This document shows, piece by piece, positions 2,504-47,980 of a stretch of DNA of 64,000 bases. The notes beneath the pieces were generated by a model. The model was not told the DNA's origin, did not search any database, and worked only from the letters and a program-made list of their open reading frames with translations. Origin of the DNA: Syncephalis fuscata (Eukaryota; Zoopagomycota; Zoopagomycetes; Zoopagales; Piptocephalidaceae). Numbering within the stretch: position 1 is the first letter of the stretch; every line of letters begins with the position of its first letter. A program made the translations under genes and the position numbers. The stretch is from assembly GCA_025786725.1 (NCBI GenBank), contig JAHLTZ010000046.1:86202-150201 (forward strand). Reading direction: 5' to 3'.

Positions 2504-4141
2504 AAAAACTGATTAATTAATTAAATGACAAGAAGAAAGGTATTAAACATTACGTTGTTATTGCATCCAAGTAATATTGTTTATTTTGAATAACACATAA
2601 ACATTTGTTGACAACAGTTCACCCTGAAGTGCGTAAATATGCTGCCCCAGACCGAATTACTATTTAAAAAGTTTAAGAATCAATTATATGCCCTTTCATA
2701 GTTGAGTCGTCAGACCTTGCAAAACGTTAACTATATTGCACTAAAATATGCTGTTATGGCTGCTACCTCTTTCATTAATCGGAGTTATACTAGTAAACAT
2801 TGACTGAAATATTGTTTAATTATGGTGTATTTGTCGTCCTAATAATTAAACTAGTAGCTATCATTTATTTCAACAGGCATTGCGTATGTTACCGGCCATA
2901 TATATAGTCCATTTATTATTATCTTTTTTAATGCTTTACTATTTAAAATAGTTTGTTATACGCATATTATAAAACAACAATCCACACTTTTAATTAGCTA
3001 ATTATTATATATTTAATATTCAATTTACATATATTCTCTATTCATCCATGTCATTCCTCATTACATACTCATGATGTTAATAAAAGTTGTCTATTTATTA
3101 CTAATTTATATCAATTTATTTTTGCTCATTTTTTGTCTTAACGCACTATAGCTTAATAATCGATTTTTGCATACTTTTATTTGCTTAACCATAATGTTTT
3201 ATATTATTATCTACTTTAGCAATGCGTTATTTAGCATGAAATAATGTGTTCTTTTTAGCGCTAGCATACATACCTTTATACACTAAATTTTTAACTGCAT
3301 GTAGTTTTATATTCAGATATTATTTTCTAATACATTTGTTGTTATTGTTTTATTAAATAAACAAAATAAAAGCATTTTTTTACAAAATTTTAAATATTCT
3401 GTTTAAGTAGTGCATAATTGGTGGTATCTGATATCCAGCCTGTACTAATATTACACCATTTTGCTTTCTATCTTCTTTGTTTCTTTGTTCTTCATTACAC
3501 CCCATATCAAGCTACTATATAGATTGCCCTTTTTTGTACATTGTTCGGTTCCCTTGAATTGCATTTGCATATCTTGACGGCATTTCACTCCTTTGTTCCT
3601 ATTGTGCCACCATGCTTTAGTCTACTTTCGGTATTAGTCACCTCGTCCACATTGCCGTTTTTTTGTAAAAAAATACTTATAATATTCGATATTTTTAATA
3701 AATAATTATACTTTTTTAACAAGCTATTAACAGATTCAATAGTAATAATAACATTACAGCATGTAGTCCATTGACAAGCAAAACAAGAATATGTAATAGC
3801 AGTCTAGATTTTATTTTTAAATAAGTTGGAACAATAGTGTCAAATATATGTTCTATCTATAAATAAACCAGAACAATGCCATACAATCTGTATTCTATTT
3901 ATAACTAATCAGAACAATGTTCATAGAGCTTCAATATGCATACATAGGCATGTTGCTATCTCACTATAAATAAAGTAAATTAGTTACAATTATCCACGTT
4001 TCTATATTCAAATCTACCATTTTTGTTTGACTATTAAATAACAGTTTTTGTGAACTTCATTTTAGTCAAACATATCTTCAAAACGTTAGCTGCAAACGCT
4101 TTTGCAAAAATTCTGATATTGTGCTGTATCTATATCGTTAT
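2504..4141. other. Intergenic, AT-rich; first 500 bp is duplicated promoter
   Basis: Positions 2504-3004 are the upstream region of 7TM-RGS copy A and recur inverted at 9931-10426. From 3005 to 4141 I see only A/T-rich sequence with short homopolymers. No open frame has convincing composition and there is no tRNA-like structure. Confidence 0.6.
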
Positions 4142-6097: not shown

Positions 6098-8119
6098 TTA
6101 GTGAAAATACCAACGTAGCATACGTGGCCATGTATTTTGAAAAATCAATTGGAGTATTTCGTAACGAGCTAGTTCAAAGTCCTTAAGCGTTAATCGATTT
6201 TGTCGATAAGCATTTGTCAGGTCCCTGCGACATTCAAATGTAATATTGATTTCATTGCGTGATGATGGACTGATAAAGTCCTCATAAATTAAATTAATTT
6301 CTCTATCTAATATATCTTTTGTTTTTGCACTCATTGGTGGCCTTGTTGCTTCGTGTTCTTCTAATATTTCGTCAATTGAGCTAATCGAGCCACTGTGAGT
6401 ATTGGCAGCAGATAATGAAGGTCTAACCGGATGGCTCGTGTTGTCACGAGGTGATAAGCTATTTTGAATAGATACTTTTGATAATTTAGTAAATGGCTGG
6501 CAATTAGCAATAAACATACCTTGCTGTAAGGGTCTACCGTGATTTCTATATATTGGATGATGCATAAGTTCACCATAGTATGGTATATAATTTTCGGCAC
6601 GATTATGAACCAAAATTTGGTCTAAAAAACGTAATCTTCGCAAAAATACCATATTTTCAATTGTGAATTCACGCATGGAATATTGGTACAACTGTACAAT
6701 TATTAGATTCAATTAAATAAAGTATGAGTACAATAATTGACTTACTGCTAGTTGTATTTCCCTATAATCTATTGTCTCCATAAACACTTCAAAGTCACTA
6801 ATGTCGCCTGAGGTTCTATTTGATACTATATTTTTTACCGTTTTTTTAGCTTGATGTTGTTGTTTACGTAAAATACGCCGTTCATAATACAAATATCCCA
6901 TTGGCCAGGTAAAGGACATTATATGACTAAAGAATAGCAATATTTCAAGCAATATTTCTACAGGAAATGCTCTACGAGCTTTAATCCAGGCAGGACTATC
7001 GATGTAGCGAATCAAAAAAAATGGAGTCATGCAAAGTATTCCTGCTAAATATTGAAAAATAAATTCGTTGCGAATACCATAGGCATCTGTTACATTCCAC
7101 ACAATAATTCCAATAGCGGGAAAAATGATGCCGAAAAAAGCGCCAATCACAATGTTAAGAAAATCAAATGGCCATTTACTACCGCAGAAGAATAATGCTG
7201 GATGCATCTTAATTGAAAACAAAGGTTCCAGTAAAATGACCATAACAACATACATGGCAGTGAAAAATGTAATAACAAAAACTACATATACATGATATTG
7301 TGGCTGTAAAACTTGTATCCCTGCTATGTATTTTACAAAACGCTGAAATGGTGTAATTTTATCTTGCCACGCCAATTTCGATGGTCTTATGTTTCCATTT
7401 TGTGACTTATGGCGTCCAAGTAAAACGTCCCACCAAGGCCTACGTGGTCTAGGCCCTATTGTATTGGATAAAGGCAAAATCTCAATGGCCGTACTTGGAA
7501 CTGGTAACTCAGTATCATCACGAAACATTCTGGGTAATGCCAAAGGTGAATTATCTGTTTGTTTTGTGCAAATATTGCCAGCCTTTACAGTGCAGTTTCC
7601 AACTCCAAACCATGTTGCCCGTCTAGCATGTCGTCTTGCACGTGTGGCTAATTGCTCATCTGCTGATGTAGGTAGCGGTAACAGTTCTGGATTATATTCT
7701 CTCAATGCATCTAGTGAGCTGCGTCGAATTTCAGTTCTTCTTATTTGTTCTTTTTCAAATAAGTGTCGATTGATTTCATAAAGCCACATTAGTCGCCAAA
7801 ATTTAAGGCTCAAACTTGTTGTCCAAAGGGCCAATCCAAGTGCTACCATTGAAAAAAAGACAGTGCAAGGATAAACAGGACGGTTCTGCAGTGCAACAAA
7901 CGTATTAGTTGTAATAATGGCGCTACCTAGCACATGAGTAACAGCCAGAAATCTACCACGATAACGTATTGCTTGTTCTTTTTGGGATAAAATTAAAAAA
8001 ACAAGCAAATCTATAATAAATAGTCCATTGATCACTCCACATAGAGTATAAAAAAGTGGTGCATTGTCAAAGATCGTCCCACGAGGCGTATGGACCACAT
8101 GATTCACAGTTGCGCTCAT
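6098..8119 (-). CDS. 7TM receptor-like protein with C-terminal RGS domain, copy B
   Basis: It has the same two-exon plan as copy A, with an intact frame. The start at 8119 (MSATV...) aligns with the MSTTV start of the other copies; further upstream the same frame has only a TTG. Compared with copy A, the large loop between segments 3 and 4 (from LREYNPELLPLPTSADEQ to WQDKITPFQRFVKYIA) and most of the RGS half are identical. The N-terminus, transmembrane segments 2-6 and the first RGS stretch (FLDQILVHNRAENYIPYYGE) differ. The inferred role is the same as copy A, with a different extracellular and membrane surface. Confidence 0.75.
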
Positions 8120-8927
8120 AAACACTGATTTTAGATAAATATATGACAAGAAGAAAGATATTAAATATTAAGTTGTTATTGGATCCAAGCAATATTGTTT
8201 ATTTTGGATAATACATGAACATTTGTTGACGATAATTCACCCTGAAGTGTGTAAATTTGTTTTTCCAGGCCGAATCGCTATTCAAAAGGTTTCAAGGGCC
8301 GGTTATGTGCCCCTTCATTTTGGACCTCAAGACTTTGTAATGTGTTAAATGTGTTACACCAAAATATGCGAATATGAGGCATGTGGTATTGGCATATGGT
8401 CGCACAATGAACATGTTGGTATCATAAGTAATAAAATGTATTCATTGAAATGCTTTGGAATTTTTAACAAGTAACAACATAATGCTGTTCATATAATATA
8501 ATCTGAATAGCGTTTCAAAACGTTTTGATTATTGTTTTTAAATAGCTGGACTTGTACAAAGAGTTTATCGACTAAAAATAGCGCACAAGCCATGAGTCAT
8601 GTGATATGTAGTATGCAATGAATTCCGGTTTAGTACAATGTGTTATTCATGAACAAAGACCCTGCCCATTGACCTTTTACAGCATGCGTGTAAAATAAGA
8701 CGCATTATATGACAAAATATCATGCGATCACAAACCATGGATTTAAATAAAGACGGTTTAAGAACAAGAGTCTTAGAATAGCAAGCTACTTTACAATCCT
8801 TATTTCATCATTTCAGTGCACTACTTTCCAAACACCAGTCTCGTTGCTCTATACACCTGCTAAATCAACTCTTAGTTAATACTATTACGTTTAATAATTG
8901 AATCTTACACTTAATTACATTGCCAAA
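8120..8927. other. Divergent promoter region between copy B and a secreted-protein gene
   Basis: The first 270 bp are the diverged 7TM-RGS upstream region. Nearer 8928 there is a TATA-like ATTTAAATAAAG around 8742 and an A/C-rich leader, consistent with transcription of the plus-strand gene. No other gene is visible. Confidence 0.5.
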
Positions 8928-10426: not shown

Positions 10427-12446
10427 ATGAGTACAACTGTGGGATTAATTCCCCAAGCGAGTTTTGGGACGTTCTTTGACAATGCACCACTTTTTTATAC
10501 TCTATGTGGAGTGATCAATGCAATATTTATTATAGATTTGCTCATTTTTTTAATTTTATCCCGAAAAGAACAAGCAATACGTTATCGCGGTAGATTTCTG
10601 GCTGTTATCCATGTGCTAGGCACCGTTATGCTTACAACTAATACATTTGTTGCAATACAGAATCGTAATGCTTATTCTTGCGCCGTCTTTTTTTCAATAT
10701 CTCTGTTGGGCTGGCTCTTTGGGCAACAAGCCAGGGTCTTAAATTTTGGCGACTAATGTGGCTTTATGAAATCAATCGACACTTATTTGAAAAAGAACAA
10801 ATAAGAAGAACTGAAATTCGACGCAGCTCACTAGATGCATTGAGAGAATATAATCCAGAACTATTACCGCTACCTACATCAGCAGACGAGCAATTAGCCA
10901 CACGTGCAAGACGACATGCTAGACGGGCAACATGGTCTGGAGTTGGAAACTGCACTGTAAAGGCTGGCAATATTTGCACAAAACAAACAGATAATTCACC
11001 TTTGGCATTACCCAGAATGTTTCGTGATGATACTGAGTTACCAGTTCCAAGTACGGCCATTGAGATTTTGCCTTTATCCAATACAATAGAGCCTAGACCA
11101 CGTAGGCCTTGGTGGGACGTTTTACTTGGACGCCATAAGTCACAAAATGGAGACATAAGACCATCGAAATTGGTGTGGCAAGATAAAATTACACCATTTC
11201 AGCGTTTTGTAAAATACATAGCAAAATCCAAATCTTGGAACCGCGATATCATGTATATGTAGTTTTTGTTATTACATTTTTCACTGCCATGTATGTTGTT
11301 ATGGTCATTTTACTGGATCCTGTTTATTCGATCAAAACATATCCACAGCTGCCCATATGCTCTGGTAGTTGGTCATTTAAGCTGCCTAACATTGGAATTG
11401 GCGCCTTTTATGGCATAATTTTTCCCGCTATTGGAATTATTGTGTGGAATGTAACAGATGCCTATGGTATTCGCAACGAAATTATTTTTCAATATTTAAT
11501 AGGAGTTATTTGCATGGCTCCATTTTTTCTAATTCGCTATATCGATAGTCCTGCCTGGGTTATAGCTCGTACCAAATTCCCTTTTGAACTATTAATTGAA
11601 ATATTGCTATTCTTTAGTCATATAATGTCCTTTACCTGGCCAATGGGATATTTATATTATGAACGGCGTATTTTACGTAAACAACAACATCAAGCTAAAA
11701 AAACGGTAGAAAATATAGTGTCGAATAGAACCTCAGGCGACATTAGTGACTTTGAAGTGTTTATGGAGACAATAGATTATAGGGAAATACAACTAGCAGT
11801 AAGTCAACTATTGTACTCATACTTTATTTAATTGAATCTAATAAATGTTCAGCTGCATCAGTATTCCATTCGTGATTTTACAAATGAAAATTTGTCGTTT
11901 TTGCGAAGATTGCGCTTTCTGGATCAAACGTTGATTCATAACCGTGACGAAAGTTACAGACCTTATTACAGTACACTTATGCATCATCCAATATATAGAA
12001 ATCACGGTAGACCCTTACAGCAAGGTATGTTTATTGCTAATTGCCAGCCATCTACTAAATTATCAAAAGTATCTATTCAAAATAGCTTATCACCTCGTGA
12101 CAACACGAGCCATCCGGTTAGACCTTCATTATCTGCTGCCAATACTCACAGTGGCTCGATTAGCTCAATTGACGAAATATTAGAAGAACACGAAGCAACA
12201 AGGCCACCAATGAGTGCAAAAACAAAAGATATATTAGATAGAGAAATTAATTTAATTTATGAGGACTTTATCAGTCCGTCATCACGCAATGAAATCAATA
12301 TTACATTTGAATGTCGCAGGGACCTGACAAATGCTTATCGACAAAATCGATTAACGCTTAAGGACTTTGAACTAGCTCGTTACGAAATACTCCAATTGAT
12401 TTTTCAAAATACATGGCCACGTATGCTACGTTGGTATTTTCACTAA
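10427..12446 (+). pseudogene. 7TM-RGS copy C, broken by two single-base deletions
   Basis: The gene has the same exon plan as copies A and B, with the intron near 11799-11852 intact. Two one-base deletions relative to copy A break the frame. One is near 10699-10702, just before transmembrane segment 3. The other is in an A-run at 11223-11226 (GCAAAATCC where A has GCAAAAATCC). Away from these the sequence is very close to A. Substitutions cluster in segments 5-7 (FKLPNIGIGAFYGIIF; WVIARTKFPFELL). The second break is a homopolymer change, so assembly error is possible. If both are real, this copy is dead while its neighbour ATE1 is whole. Confidence 0.7.
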
Positions 12447-40641: not shown

Positions 40642-41082
40642 ACATAGCATAATACTAATATTAATAATAATTTTCATTTATGTTTAATCATTCCATTGTA
40701 AAGTTTGTGTAAAATAATAATGGTTTTTACGTAATTATATAGCCATTACCTCAGTGTTATGTTATTGGCGTTTATTATATTGCATATGTAGTTGTAAGCT
40801 ATGAATTTGAAAGTTTGTTTTTTATTATGACTTATGCGTTTGTTGGTAGGTGATAGGCTTGATTATATGGTATACCTTTTATAAATCGATATATGATGCA
40901 ACTATTGCAATGTTTAAGTATGAATTGTGCGCTAAAGTTAACGTTTATTGCTAATAATAATATGAATACCGGTCGTAGTTTCGGTAATTGTTGTGATTGG
41001 ACTAGCCATTATCGGGATGTTTGTTGCCAGTTGTATCAAGATACAGCGACAGTGGTATAAAGAGCAGAGATGATTATTATTC

Positions 41083-41255
41083 CTATTTGCCTGGAGTACG
41101 TGGTATATTGTAAAACACACAGTTAGTAAAAAACAGTCATACAAAAATAAAGTGCACAGCTTACCACCACGACCAGGAACTGGCTTAGCATTTGCCGTAG
41201 CCATAACTACTAAAAGAACTGCGGCAGCAGCACAGACAGTGACGAAAAGCTTCAT
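41083..41255 (-). CDS. Short secreted peptide gene
   Basis: Exon 1 (41255-41165) encodes a clear signal peptide, MKLFVTVCAAAAVLLVVMAT followed by ANAKPVPGRG. An intron with consensus donor GTAAGC and a perfect TACTAAC branch site ends at CTCCAG. Splicing there gives stop after GK, about 32 residues. A second AG eight bases on (AAATAG) would instead give a slightly longer hydrophobic tail. If the intron is retained the frame stays open to 40938. The start resembles the first exon of the micro-exon gene at 46938 (both ATGAAGCTTT then hydrophobic). The product may be a processed extracellular peptide; function unknown. Confidence 0.4.
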
Positions 41256-44147: not shown

Positions 44148-45947
44148 TATGATAATGATTGCAAGTTTAAAAGTTGTGCGTAGTTATTGGTGCGTTTATT
44201 CGCTTAATCAGATAGCTGTAATCAATAAAATAAAATAGTAGTGTAAGTTGCTGGAGAAGCTATAGCTTTGTTGGGATGCTGGATCAACTATTGGCCAGAT
44301 AAATTGCTGTGTATTTATACTCAATCTTGTAGTAGCATCTGCTAAGATGTGTTTTATGGTTATAATTATGGCCAAGAGTATTCTTATTTTCTAAGTCCTG
44401 AGTAGTGTAATAAACAACGTCTCCGACCACGCCATGCTAAAACATAACAGTCCTTAATAGCATAAGATTTAATGTTTCAGGTAAACAACCAGTTATCACA
44501 TTTTTATCAAAGCCACACTTTTGCATATTATATTGCCACAATTTGCTAATAGTATTTATGTGTTATAGTTATATCGTTTATTCTTGGTATTAATGATCTT
44601 TTGCCAACAAATATATCAACACACCAACTAATGTGCTATATTGTAAAATTGGTTTATTAATTATTGCATATTGCACGTTTTATATTCTTGCAGGATACAA
44701 GTTTGCACTCATTTTATTGCAGTAAAGTTTTGATCCAACTTTCGCGGTACTGGTTTGAATTTTCATGCTTTGTTATACTTACTGATTATAATCTATTGGT
44801 TTCATTAAACCGTACTAGGACCAACTCCTATGAAATTATTCCGGCTATGTTTAGCACAATACTGCCATAGTTAGATGTTATTGATTTAAAGGTAGCTGTC
44901 CTTATTATGCATGCATTTGCTCAAGACATTGTAATAGACCAATAAACAAATGATTAGACCAATAAACTGGTATTTTATAACTATGAAGGTTCCACGTGCA
45001 ATGCAAACACAATATAACGATTGATTGCAATAGATTCAATTACTACAATGTGGTTATTGGTTTTATTGATTTAATAACAAATTTATTTTTTATTAACCAC
45101 TAATCATCATAGTTTAATTATAATAAACTGAATAATTGTATGATACCAAATAGAAATAAAATGGAAGTAAAAGTTTATTGTCTTCATTGATATAGAATAA
45201 AGCTACAATTATATAGTAAGTATAGCTAGTAATGAAGCTTGAGCATTTTGTAGTATCTCATCATTAATGCAGCATATCAGTTCATGTGTCTGCTCATATG
45301 CTCACAGCCAATAAATAGCTACTCGCCATATTGTTTTAATAGTCGCTTGTTTTTCAGTAATTAGTGTTGATATTCGATATAAGTACATATCATTATCATC
45401 TGTTTAATCAAATAATGCATTTTTAGTCACACCATTAAATATAACAGTATTAAACTTAAAGTTGTAGTGTCTGTGTTGTGAAATTACGTATGGCTAGATT
45501 GTATAATAAGACGGCAATGTCAAGCTATGTTAAATGTAGCTATACACAATTTACATTATAGCTATTGCCAATTGATGAGTACCATCGTACCAACATCAAT
45601 ATAGGCCCTCACCAATCATATAGTAATAATAATAATAATGATAATAGATTTGCTAATATTTATTAGTTGCTGATACAAATAGAACATGAATATAGGTGCG
45701 ACAACTTAATTACATATAGCTAAATTAAGTCATTTCATTACTACAATTTTTGCATATTTGAATAGACACAGATAAATCAAATCGTTAGTAATGTAATAGT
45801 AACATTGGTGGAAAAATCAATAAGTGGAGTATTGGATATGGCTTGATATGAATGAGCTAAACGCAGTTCTTGAATGATTTTGATTTTTTTAAATATATAC
45901 CTAAAATATATTGAGCTAGCAGTTAATTTGCACCACCAATGCTATTT
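44148..45947. other. Intergenic between two secreted-protein genes
   Basis: Holds the CAP gene promoter (TATA-like GAGTATAAATACAC near 44310) and AT-rich DNA. An open frame at 44664-44870 starts with a non-ATG codon and lacks support. A TAA/ATA-rich microsatellite lies near 45625-45645. Confidence 0.5.
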
Positions 45948-46938
45948 TTAAAAGCACCAGTCATTCTATGTTTGTAAATAAATATAGCGCATGCTACATT
46001 AGTGTATAGGTCATCAATATATAATATTACTTACAAGCTGTTTATAACGTTGTTAATATATAGTGCGTAGCATTTAGTTGGTATATAAACTAATCATGCA
46101 AATTGCTACTTACCACCTATTAGTATAAGTTATCAAACACACAAAATACGTAGCATCTGTTTAATAAATAGTTAGTTAATATAGATTGCTACTTATGAAC
46201 TGTTGGCGATAGATACTAAGTGTCCATAGTGTATAATATATGATTAGTATATTGTTAATAATATGCGGTATGGCTTACTGTCTATTAATATCAAATTATT
46301 AAACGTGCAATGCATAGTATATTTTTAGTGCATAGCTAAATAATACAAGATTTTACTTACGAGCTATTAATGTTAAATCAATAAAACACCCGGTAAATAT
46401 AATATGATTAGTACATGATTAGTCAGCAAGGTCTTACTTACGAACTATCAGTATTAAGTTGTTGATAAACACAGCAATAGCATACCATTAATGTATGGTC
46501 AATAATATACAATGTCACTTACAATCTATTAATATTAGGTTGTTAATATGCACAATAAATAGCATGTAATTAATGTATATTTTGTTAATATACAATTTCA
46601 CCTACCAGCTATAATAGTGTATTATTAATATGCGTAGTACACAGTTTGTAATTAGTGGGTAGCCAAACAATATACAATTTGAATTACTTCCTATTAGTAC
46701 AAGTTTTAAACACACGCAACGTATGGAATATAATTAAAGCATAGCTAATCAATATACAATACAACTTACGAGCTATCAATGTTAGTTTGAGAATAAAAGT
46801 AATATTTAATTAAATGAGTAATTAGTTATTGTGATTGTAACATATTACGACGAATTAAACTAGCTTAGTATACACTATGGCTATATTAAGCACAAAAGCC
46901 ACGACAATGGTACAGACGACGGCAACAGAAAGCTTCAT
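45948..46938 (-). CDS. Candidate micro-exon gene: signal-peptide exon, ten 3-nt exons, terminal exon
   Basis: Exon 1 (46938-46876) encodes the hydrophobic secretory leader MKLSVAVVCTIVVAFVLNIA plus Ile and ends at a GT in phase 0. Downstream, ten tandem intron-like units each end in (A)TAG or ACAG, leave exactly three bases, and restart with GTAAGT or a close variant. The triplets (46770-46772, 46688-46690, 46606-46608, 46523-46525, 46442-46444, 46361-46363, 46279-46281, 46197-46199, 46114-46116, 46035-46037) read CTC, GAA, CTG, ATT, TTC, CTC, ACA, TTC, GTG, CTT on the minus strand. In phase 0 they add LELIFLTFVL. The terminal exon from 45965 gives NDWCF and stop at 45948-45950. Nine of ten donors keep GT (the unit after 46197 has AT), and all acceptors keep AG. 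A single long intron skipping all triplets would also keep the frame. Expression is unproven. Confidence 0.4.
45966..46868 (-). repeat. Tandem array of ~82-bp intron-like repeats
   Basis: Spacing between successive triplets is 82, 82, 83, 81, 81, 82, 82, 83 and 79 bases. Units share the order GTAAGT, an ATTGTATATT-like block, a CTATGCACTAAT-like block and a TTAATATTAATAG end, with many substitutions in between. The array therefore looks old. Splice-site bases are far better kept than the interior, and the three bases at each junction vary freely. Confidence 0.85.
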
Positions 46939-47980
46939 GGTGATATTGATTTGTTATAAGCAGCAATTAGAATAAGCAATGGAATGTGTTTGCTACAAAA
47001 TAAACAATAACGAGTAGTTGACGGCAATTAGAGTGCAATAACGATATCGCGGATTACTTGTGTGTATTATGCGGGCTATTTAAATTTATGATTACGCTGA
47101 AATAGCAACATGACTTATTGTATGGGAGATACAATTAATGTGTAGTATGAACCAACAATAGCAATGACATCACACTGTCTTTGTTCTCTTTTTTTCAAAC
47201 TTTCAATGACAACGTTTGCATACTCCATGAACAAAAGCCATAAATTATATTACTGTAACATTAATGTGTTATAAGATATTTTTGCACAATATGTTTTATT
47301 GTTTGTAAACAAGTTGTCACTTCTTGAACCATAAAACATACTTATTGCTTTATTTGTGCGCTCAGTTTGATGTTGTAGCTACTGTTACAGGAACGAACAA
47401 CATGCTTAATCCACAAAGGCATTATGTCTAAGCATAAATTTGTACATTGTATACTATTGTTGAAATATCAGATGGCCATTGGTCGAGATTCATATGGAAT
47501 GGGCATTGTAATAAACAATATTCGTAATGTAGTGTATCACAACACTTTCAACAATAAACATTTCAGTCTTATTGATGTCACTGGTTAGGCAATTGTAGTG
47601 TAATCTGCATTTGAAAGACTATATGCGATACAATGTGTAGACGCTAGGCTAGGTATATCAAGCAGTTCCAGCCATATACTATTATCTTTGAACATATAAT
47701 GGTAGTGAATTGCATCTCAGCCAGTGATTACACAAAGCCTAATTGATTCCAGATGCCTCTAAAACAATCCTAACATCACATCACAGAATATTGCTTACAA
47801 AATAATAAACAAAAGTAGCAACCACTGAAAAAGCAATTTGATTTTACTAAGACAAGATAGCCATTACTTTTATTGTTCATTTAAGAGGCGAGTTTTGTAA
47901 AGAATCATCAATTTTATTAAAGAATAGGTTGATTAACTTCTTTCTCCTCTATTTTTCTTCAACACACATACGTACACAAG
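46939..47980. other. Intergenic between the micro-exon gene and SRP14
   Basis: Includes a TATA-like TAAATTTAAATAGCCCGC about 140 bp upstream of the micro-exon gene start (minus strand). Otherwise AT-rich, with no supported gene. Confidence 0.5.

Follow-up and report, generated by a model that had tools for sequence, protein, structure and literature searches.

Tandem rows of predicted three-nucleotide exons behind a secretory leader in the fungus Syncephalis fuscata

A decayed array in the window

The window analysed here is a stretch of 64,000 nucleotides from the genome of Syncephalis fuscata, a member of a genus that parasitises other fungi. Its HSP90 shares 94% identity with the Syncephalis plumigaleata protein and 99%, over 83%, with a partial protein of S. 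fuscata. On its minus strand, between 46938 and 45948, ten consecutive units lie 79-83 bp apart, each made up of AG, three bases and GT (Table 1). The AG is kept in all ten units and the GT in nine, unit 8 being the exception, and the middle base of the triplet is T in eight of the ten. The initial annotation of this DNA had described the locus as a ten-unit tandem array of three-nucleotide exons, and its units, triplets and splice-site counts were confirmed. Upstream of the array, a frame beginning with MKLS opens at 46938. Scans of the window for Rfam families and tRNAs gave no matches.

Table 1. Coordinates of the array copy and its flanks within the window
Feature	Position	Strand	Basis
5' flank, like the 5' flank of family loci	46939..47165	-	blastn of 47400-44800 against 34 family loci
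Leader exon remnant, MKLSVAVVCTIVVAFVLNIAIVYTKLV and then a stop at 46857-46855	46846..46938	-	comparison by eye with the L015 leader
Site of the family leader donor, here not GT	46840..46845	-	family leaders end in G followed by GTATGT
3-nt exon 1, CTC	46770..46772	-	AG-NNN-GT unit
3-nt exon 2, GAA	46688..46690	-	AG-NNN-GT unit
3-nt exon 3, CTG	46606..46608	-	AG-NNN-GT unit
3-nt exon 4, ATT	46523..46525	-	AG-NNN-GT unit
3-nt exon 5, TTC	46442..46444	-	AG-NNN-GT unit
3-nt exon 6, CTC	46361..46363	-	AG-NNN-GT unit
3-nt exon 7, ACA	46279..46281	-	AG-NNN-GT unit
3-nt exon 8, TTC; donor place after the exon is ATAAGT, not GT	46197..46199	-	sequence
3-nt exon 9, GTG	46114..46116	-	AG-NNN-GT unit
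3-nt exon 10, CTT	46035..46037	-	AG-NNN-GT unit
Presumed terminal exon, acceptor TAG at 45968-45966	45654..45965	-	sequence; blastn rows reaching 45654 (L050)

The locus has many relatives in the same genome. When window 47400-44800 was compared by blastn with 34 loci of the family described below, the best rows started at window 47165, and the 14 best rows matched at 66-70% over 541-1,189 bp. The 5' flank also matches the flanks of intronless paralogs (63-141 bp at 73-79%), and the part of the presumed terminal exon beyond its first codon resembles the 3' part of family loci. Read in phase 1, the phase used by the family, the window copy would give the product RTDFPHIRA, which has neither a cysteine nor an internal stop, and the frame closes immediately in the presumed terminal exon (T of exon 10 plus AA). 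Because the leader contains a stop, the leader donor and one internal donor are not GT, and the product lacks cysteine, the window copy is probably a pseudogene. It is very probably what remains of one gene in an extensive family whose members encode small, secreted and mostly cysteine-rich peptides in rows of micro-exons, the introns of which would be removed stepwise.

Gene structure and reading phase

A search with the leader scored 150 genomic places among 317 candidates, every one at E <= 5e-7. We sampled 52 stretches, which were picked by leader or array rather than at random and whose paralogs are not independent. In 22 of the 26 loci that were read, a row of tandem units follows the leader in place of an open frame. 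The leaders read MKLSIAVVCTIVVA...NPALVRR and end in a Kex2-like RR, after which the micro-exon row begins. Gene models were built without any use of the reading frame. L013 gave no chain, L014 and L035 (near copies) were not modelled, and L053, L055 and L059 comprised only 341 bp. All 34 array models open with a secretory leader of the MKLS/MKFS type, by which the loci had been selected, and in all 34 the leader exon breaks off after the first base of a codon (phase 1).

The exons that follow are nearly uniform in length. Chaining with a flat prior on exon length made 852 of 874 exons exactly 3 nt long. Relaxed chaining, which allowed exons of up to 15 nt, gave 884 exons, comprising 831 of 3 nt, 43 of 6 nt, one of 12 nt and nine of 2, 4 or 7 nt; these nine are not multiples of three and would break the frame if real. 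A first exon of 28 nt that appeared in 16 models when the 15-nt limit was not applied was discarded as spurious. Relaxed chaining shortened L031, L034 and L045, which have long gaps, to one exon each. The 27 models with at least 18 exons form the set used below; L027, L031, L034, L037, L042, L045 and L047 were left out of it, and the relaxed models of L037, L042 and L047 contain a stop. In the 27 longer models, 18-42 exons encode almost all of the predicted mature peptide, and their length is 3 nt with few exceptions, some being 6 nt.

Each codon in the arrays is formed from base 3 of one micro-exon and bases 1-2 of the next. Joined in this way, neighbouring exons are almost free of stop codons: there were none in 410 distinct pairs from 20 arrays compared to 27.0 in shuffles, two in 626 junctions of the strict models of 34 loci compared to 38.8 expected, and none in 667 distinct junctions of the 27 relaxed models compared to 41.6 expected. 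Exon pairs that span a gap in the 34 loci were too few to be informative, with no stops where 1.1 were expected (n=92). Whole arrays were open in 26 of 27 cases (5.1 expected), with a stop in L011. The other split phase carries stops at chance, with 29 compared to 28.8 in the 20 arrays and 42 compared to 41.4 in the 34 loci. Phase 0 was dropped; TAA is absent from its triplets and TGA occurs in nine, yet all TAN triplets are rare (12 in total), a rarity that fits the small number of xTA codons, both in arrays (11 of 897) and in intronless paralogs (4 of 329).

The same test bears on whether one locus yields many peptides by leaving out different sets of exons. As almost every exon measures 3 or 6 nt, the frame would survive skipping. 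However, joins to the second, third and fourth neighbour carry stops at chance (46 compared to 42.5 expected, 39 to 38.8 and 40 to 39.3), as do joins to the fifth and sixth (28 compared to 35.0 and 30 to 31.9), the slight deficit at the fifth neighbour being nonsignificant (P 0.06). Since only joins between neighbours are free of stops, selection appears to see all exons in order and skipping is not maintained, which leaves alternative inclusion a very unlikely explanation.

These results modify the initial annotation in three respects. It had joined the window array to its leader in phase 0; family leaders are in phase 1, and the window leader itself holds a stop and has no GT donor. The hydrophobic codons that it read in the triplets were an artefact of the wrong phase, as the middle base of the triplet falls at the wobble position of the real codon, in line with the bias toward T and C at this base (176 T and 150 C in 467 distinct units). 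Its proposal that any subset of exons could be skipped to give many peptide lengths is not supported, given the chance-level stops in joins that skip one to five exons. Its central picture, that of tandem three-nucleotide exons behind a secretory leader, built from a repeated unit of intron plus three bases with selection on the splice sites, was judged right.

The micro-introns have the form GT/GC...AG and a median length of 78 nt. Among 706 of them, 625 start with GTAAGT and 12 with GCAAGT, and 692 end in TAG. Seven introns of the AP-beta gene in the window, whose positions we set by eye on the protein, are 51-74 bp long; all start with GTA and end with TAG, and two of the seven have GTAAGT. 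The splice boxes of the arrays are thus of the same kind as those of ordinary introns in this fungus. Such ends weigh against the possibility that the spacers are cut out of DNA rather than RNA, with the codons joined all the same. The junction test is blind to this distinction, and programmed DNA elimination would leave it unchanged, but the spacers have spliceosomal ends that the ordinary introns share. DNA elimination is not known from this group, and we regard it as extremely improbable here. A small secreted-looking gene (MKLFVTVCAAAAVLLVVMATANAKPVPGRGG) at window 40938-41254 on the minus strand apparently has one ordinary intron of 74 bp.

Predicted products, intronless relatives and evolution

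The predicted spliced peptides are rich in cysteine, which accounts for 14.7% of 897 codons; examples are AGGSEECRVCLENCKKNGWSAFWCHTWSTCSRAC (L038) and GESLTCEECRSKCKEWKDYISACVFKCRQTEC (L023). A six-cysteine pattern was found in 10 of 27 products compared to 2 of 540 shuffled-exon products, and in none of the 27 in either other phase; the remaining 17 products do not fit it. Some genes of the family carry the same leader followed by an uninterrupted ordinary frame, for example GPKNPAKCKECINECEGVPKPSMKEKCNKPGRCKAECA (L029). Nine such intronless genes were used for comparison, a set that omits L030, whose mature peptide equals that of L029, and L061, which has another cysteine pattern. The codon usage of the array products correlates with that of the nine (r = 0.861, compared to 0.092 and 0.050 when the other phases are read). 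A profile of these nine peptides scored a median of 3.3 bits with the spliced products and -0.2 with shuffled ones; at least 5 bits were reached by 8 of 27 products compared to 13 of 540 shuffled, and 8 of the 27 fell below 0 bits. The profile likeness between spliced and intronless peptides is therefore weak. Among the matches listed, four intronless genes, two of them near copies, share flanks with array genes, at 79-92% over 154-353 bp upstream and at 76-85% over 252-929 bp downstream.

The stop-free neighbour junctions and the codon usage together bear on whether the arrays are simply an untranslated tandem repeat with chance splice-like boxes around a variable triplet. The units are indeed tandem and alike outside the triplet, and the window copy taken alone could be read in this way. 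Such a repeat would explain neither why stops are missing between neighbours when longer joins have them at chance, nor why the joined codons resemble those of intronless paralogs, and its probability is close to negligible.

Splice boxes around three bases proved abundant when the whole genome (28.95 Mb, 299 contigs) was searched. The exact form TAATAGNNNGTAAGT (TAATAG-NNN-GTAAGT) has 2,716 matches, whereas its reversed control has 5. Tandem pairs of exact units number 1,429, with none in the control. With the same boxes spaced by four bases there are 14 matches (20 in the control), and by two bases 26 (36 in the control). Bare AG-NNN-GT is common, with 173 and 216 matches on the two strands of the window; the excess over chance lies in the tandem period combined with fixed splice boxes, not in AG-NNN-GT alone. 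The exact pattern is fitted by 603 of the 831 modelled 3-nt exons, and extrapolation from this fraction suggests a genomic total that may be near 3,700.

Near-identical pairs of arrays are frequent, some of them inverted (contig C1 at 475-478 kb and 531-534 kb; C2 at 225-228 kb and 245-248 kb), and are also found on small contigs such as C58; they have either been duplicated recently or are alternative haplotypes that the assembly retains. Arrays of a second class have other intron interiors, long rows and the leader MKLSIAVACTLVVAFVANVAMVDAMPALVRR, as at L062 (C2:658300-660700); further members lie at C2:654526-656861 and C2:519736-540127. The 26 units read at L062 are free of stops in both phase 1 and phase 0. 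They contain one cysteine, so that the L062 product is not a six-cysteine peptide.

A search of the public protein set yielded 13 relatives, all from Syncephalis fuscata, and inspection of these 13 sequences by eye revealed no micro-exon product. At array locus L045 the deposited protein P0123 runs from the leader directly into an open frame farther downstream (reverse strand 552-644), and this model is an example of annotation missing array genes. A Pfam scan of three intronless paralogs gave no match at the gathering score, the best chance-like rows being DUF4245 (12.6 bits, cut-off 30.1) and Fer4_10 (16.3 bits, cut-off 25.5). In L061 and in the proteins P0128 and P0131, the shared leader precedes other uninterrupted mature regions (GPIPPFGACKCRDDDGYCTSC...), suggesting that the leader is common to more than one kind of product.

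Alignment of the units shows the lowest conservation at the three exon bases, where the frequency of the commonest base is 0.37, 0.37 and 0.31. The donor GTAAGT is conserved at 0.94 or above, in columns that were partly preset because units were picked by a YAG plus GT pattern. In the paralog pairs L024/L025, L050/L051 and L022/L032, exon bases differ by 0.58, 0.46 and 0.46 and introns by 0.18, 0.11 and 0.13; donor boxes and leaders in such pairs differ by 0.03 at most. Of 24 pairs, which are non-independent and of very unequal alignment quality, 22 show greater divergence in exon bases than in introns, by a factor of 1.6-4.3, and two show less (L021/L022 and L037/L042). Diversifying selection on exons, conversion among introns, or both would produce such an excess. 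In 12 pairs, one of which yielded no codons, cysteine was kept at 39 of 51 aligned positions, whereas the other residues were kept at 129 of 233 (Fisher P 0.007), and among codons with a single difference 41 changes were nonsynonymous and five synonymous.

A tree of the 93-nt leaders mixes array and intronless forms and forces at least three changes between them, with the two labels also partly clustered; it is weakly resolved, with 5 of 38 inner branches well supported. This mixing suggests that arrays were probably lost or gained repeatedly. Intronless forms with shared flanks would be explained if arrays were lost by way of DNA copied from spliced mRNA.

Possible splicing mechanism and comparison with known systems

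Three nucleotides leave too little room for an exon to be bound on both sides simultaneously. We propose that the spliceosome would remove the introns of an array in 5'-to-3' order. With each step the first exon would grow by three bases and the next GTAAGT would come to lie at its end, so that no three-nucleotide exon would need to be recognised from both sides at once. Such a scheme would amount to recursive splicing that leaves three bases behind per step. Duplication of the unit, homogenisation, and selection on the three exon bases may together diversify the peptides.

The main rival to this stepwise mechanism accepts the same genes and products and has the introns removed in no fixed order by intron definition, with no ratchet. 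Intron definition is usual in fungi at intron sizes as short as the median found here. On the other side, if a downstream intron were removed first, the AG of the three-nucleotide exon would still lie only three bases from the joined exon. Free-order splicing is a serious possibility, though we consider it doubtful.

In a bolder reading, an array of one codon per cassette is a categorically new architecture: the exon would have been reduced to codon size, homogenised introns would frame free triplets, peptides could be edited residue by residue without breaking the frame as units are duplicated, converted or deleted, the spliceosome would act as an assembler of three-base pieces, and the outcome would be an arsenal of host-directed peptides. 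We offer this reading tentatively, as somewhat short of an even prospect. As the chemistry is presumably that of ordinary splicing, we class the family as an extreme variant of the micro-exon gene.

The exons of schistosome micro-exon genes (MEGs) span several codons (6-36 nt). Very small symmetrical exons make up most of the MEG coding region, as reported by DeMarco et al. 2010 (cited in PMC4350168). MEGs share with the fungal genes these tiny symmetrical exons, secreted products at the host interface and fast evolution. The concept of a MEG includes alternative splicing, whereas the fungal arrays, judged from genomic sequence, show no maintained skipping. The arrays also differ in having tens of consecutive three-nucleotide exons, with every codon split. 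The bicycle genes of aphids (PMC9168663) likewise encode secreted, fast-evolving putative effectors, and their numerous internal exons are unusually small and almost always share one phase. A bicycle gene has about 17 exons on average; these are larger than the fungal ones, are in phase 2 and do not consist of a tandemly copied single-codon unit.

Exons of a single nucleotide are known from CYP621A in Fusarium (PMC12940212) and from plant APC11 and VPS55 (PMC8831610). They establish that exons this small are spliced, and APC11, like the fungal family, has intronless copies beside intron-bearing ones (PMC8831610). Unlike the arrays, those exons occur singly in otherwise ordinary genes and not in rows of tens. 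Recursive splicing with RS-exons (PMC6224609) resembles the proposed scheme in that a 5' splice site at or near the new junction serves the next step; it removes a long intron or skips an exon, whereas the fungal steps would leave three coding bases. Among the matches listed in open PMC papers, none was recognisable by its title or the start of its abstract as describing a gene of tandem three-nucleotide exons.

Exons reduced to one codon, tens in a row, challenge the concept of two-sided exon recognition. If confirmed by RNA, the arrays would provide a natural system for studying sequential splicing and intron evolution, and a model of spliceosome fidelity in which tens of correct junctions are made per 40-residue peptide. 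The intronless paralogs with shared flanks permit direct comparison. The contrast between the leader-scored genomic places and the few public protein relatives indicates a gene family that has stayed hidden; genes of this kind would probably escape ordinary gene finders, and other genomes may hide them too. Elsewhere in the window, 482-2512, 6098-8167 (minus strand) and 10669-12446 (plus strand) hold three very similar pairs of long open frames, partly hydrophobic and about 2 kb each.
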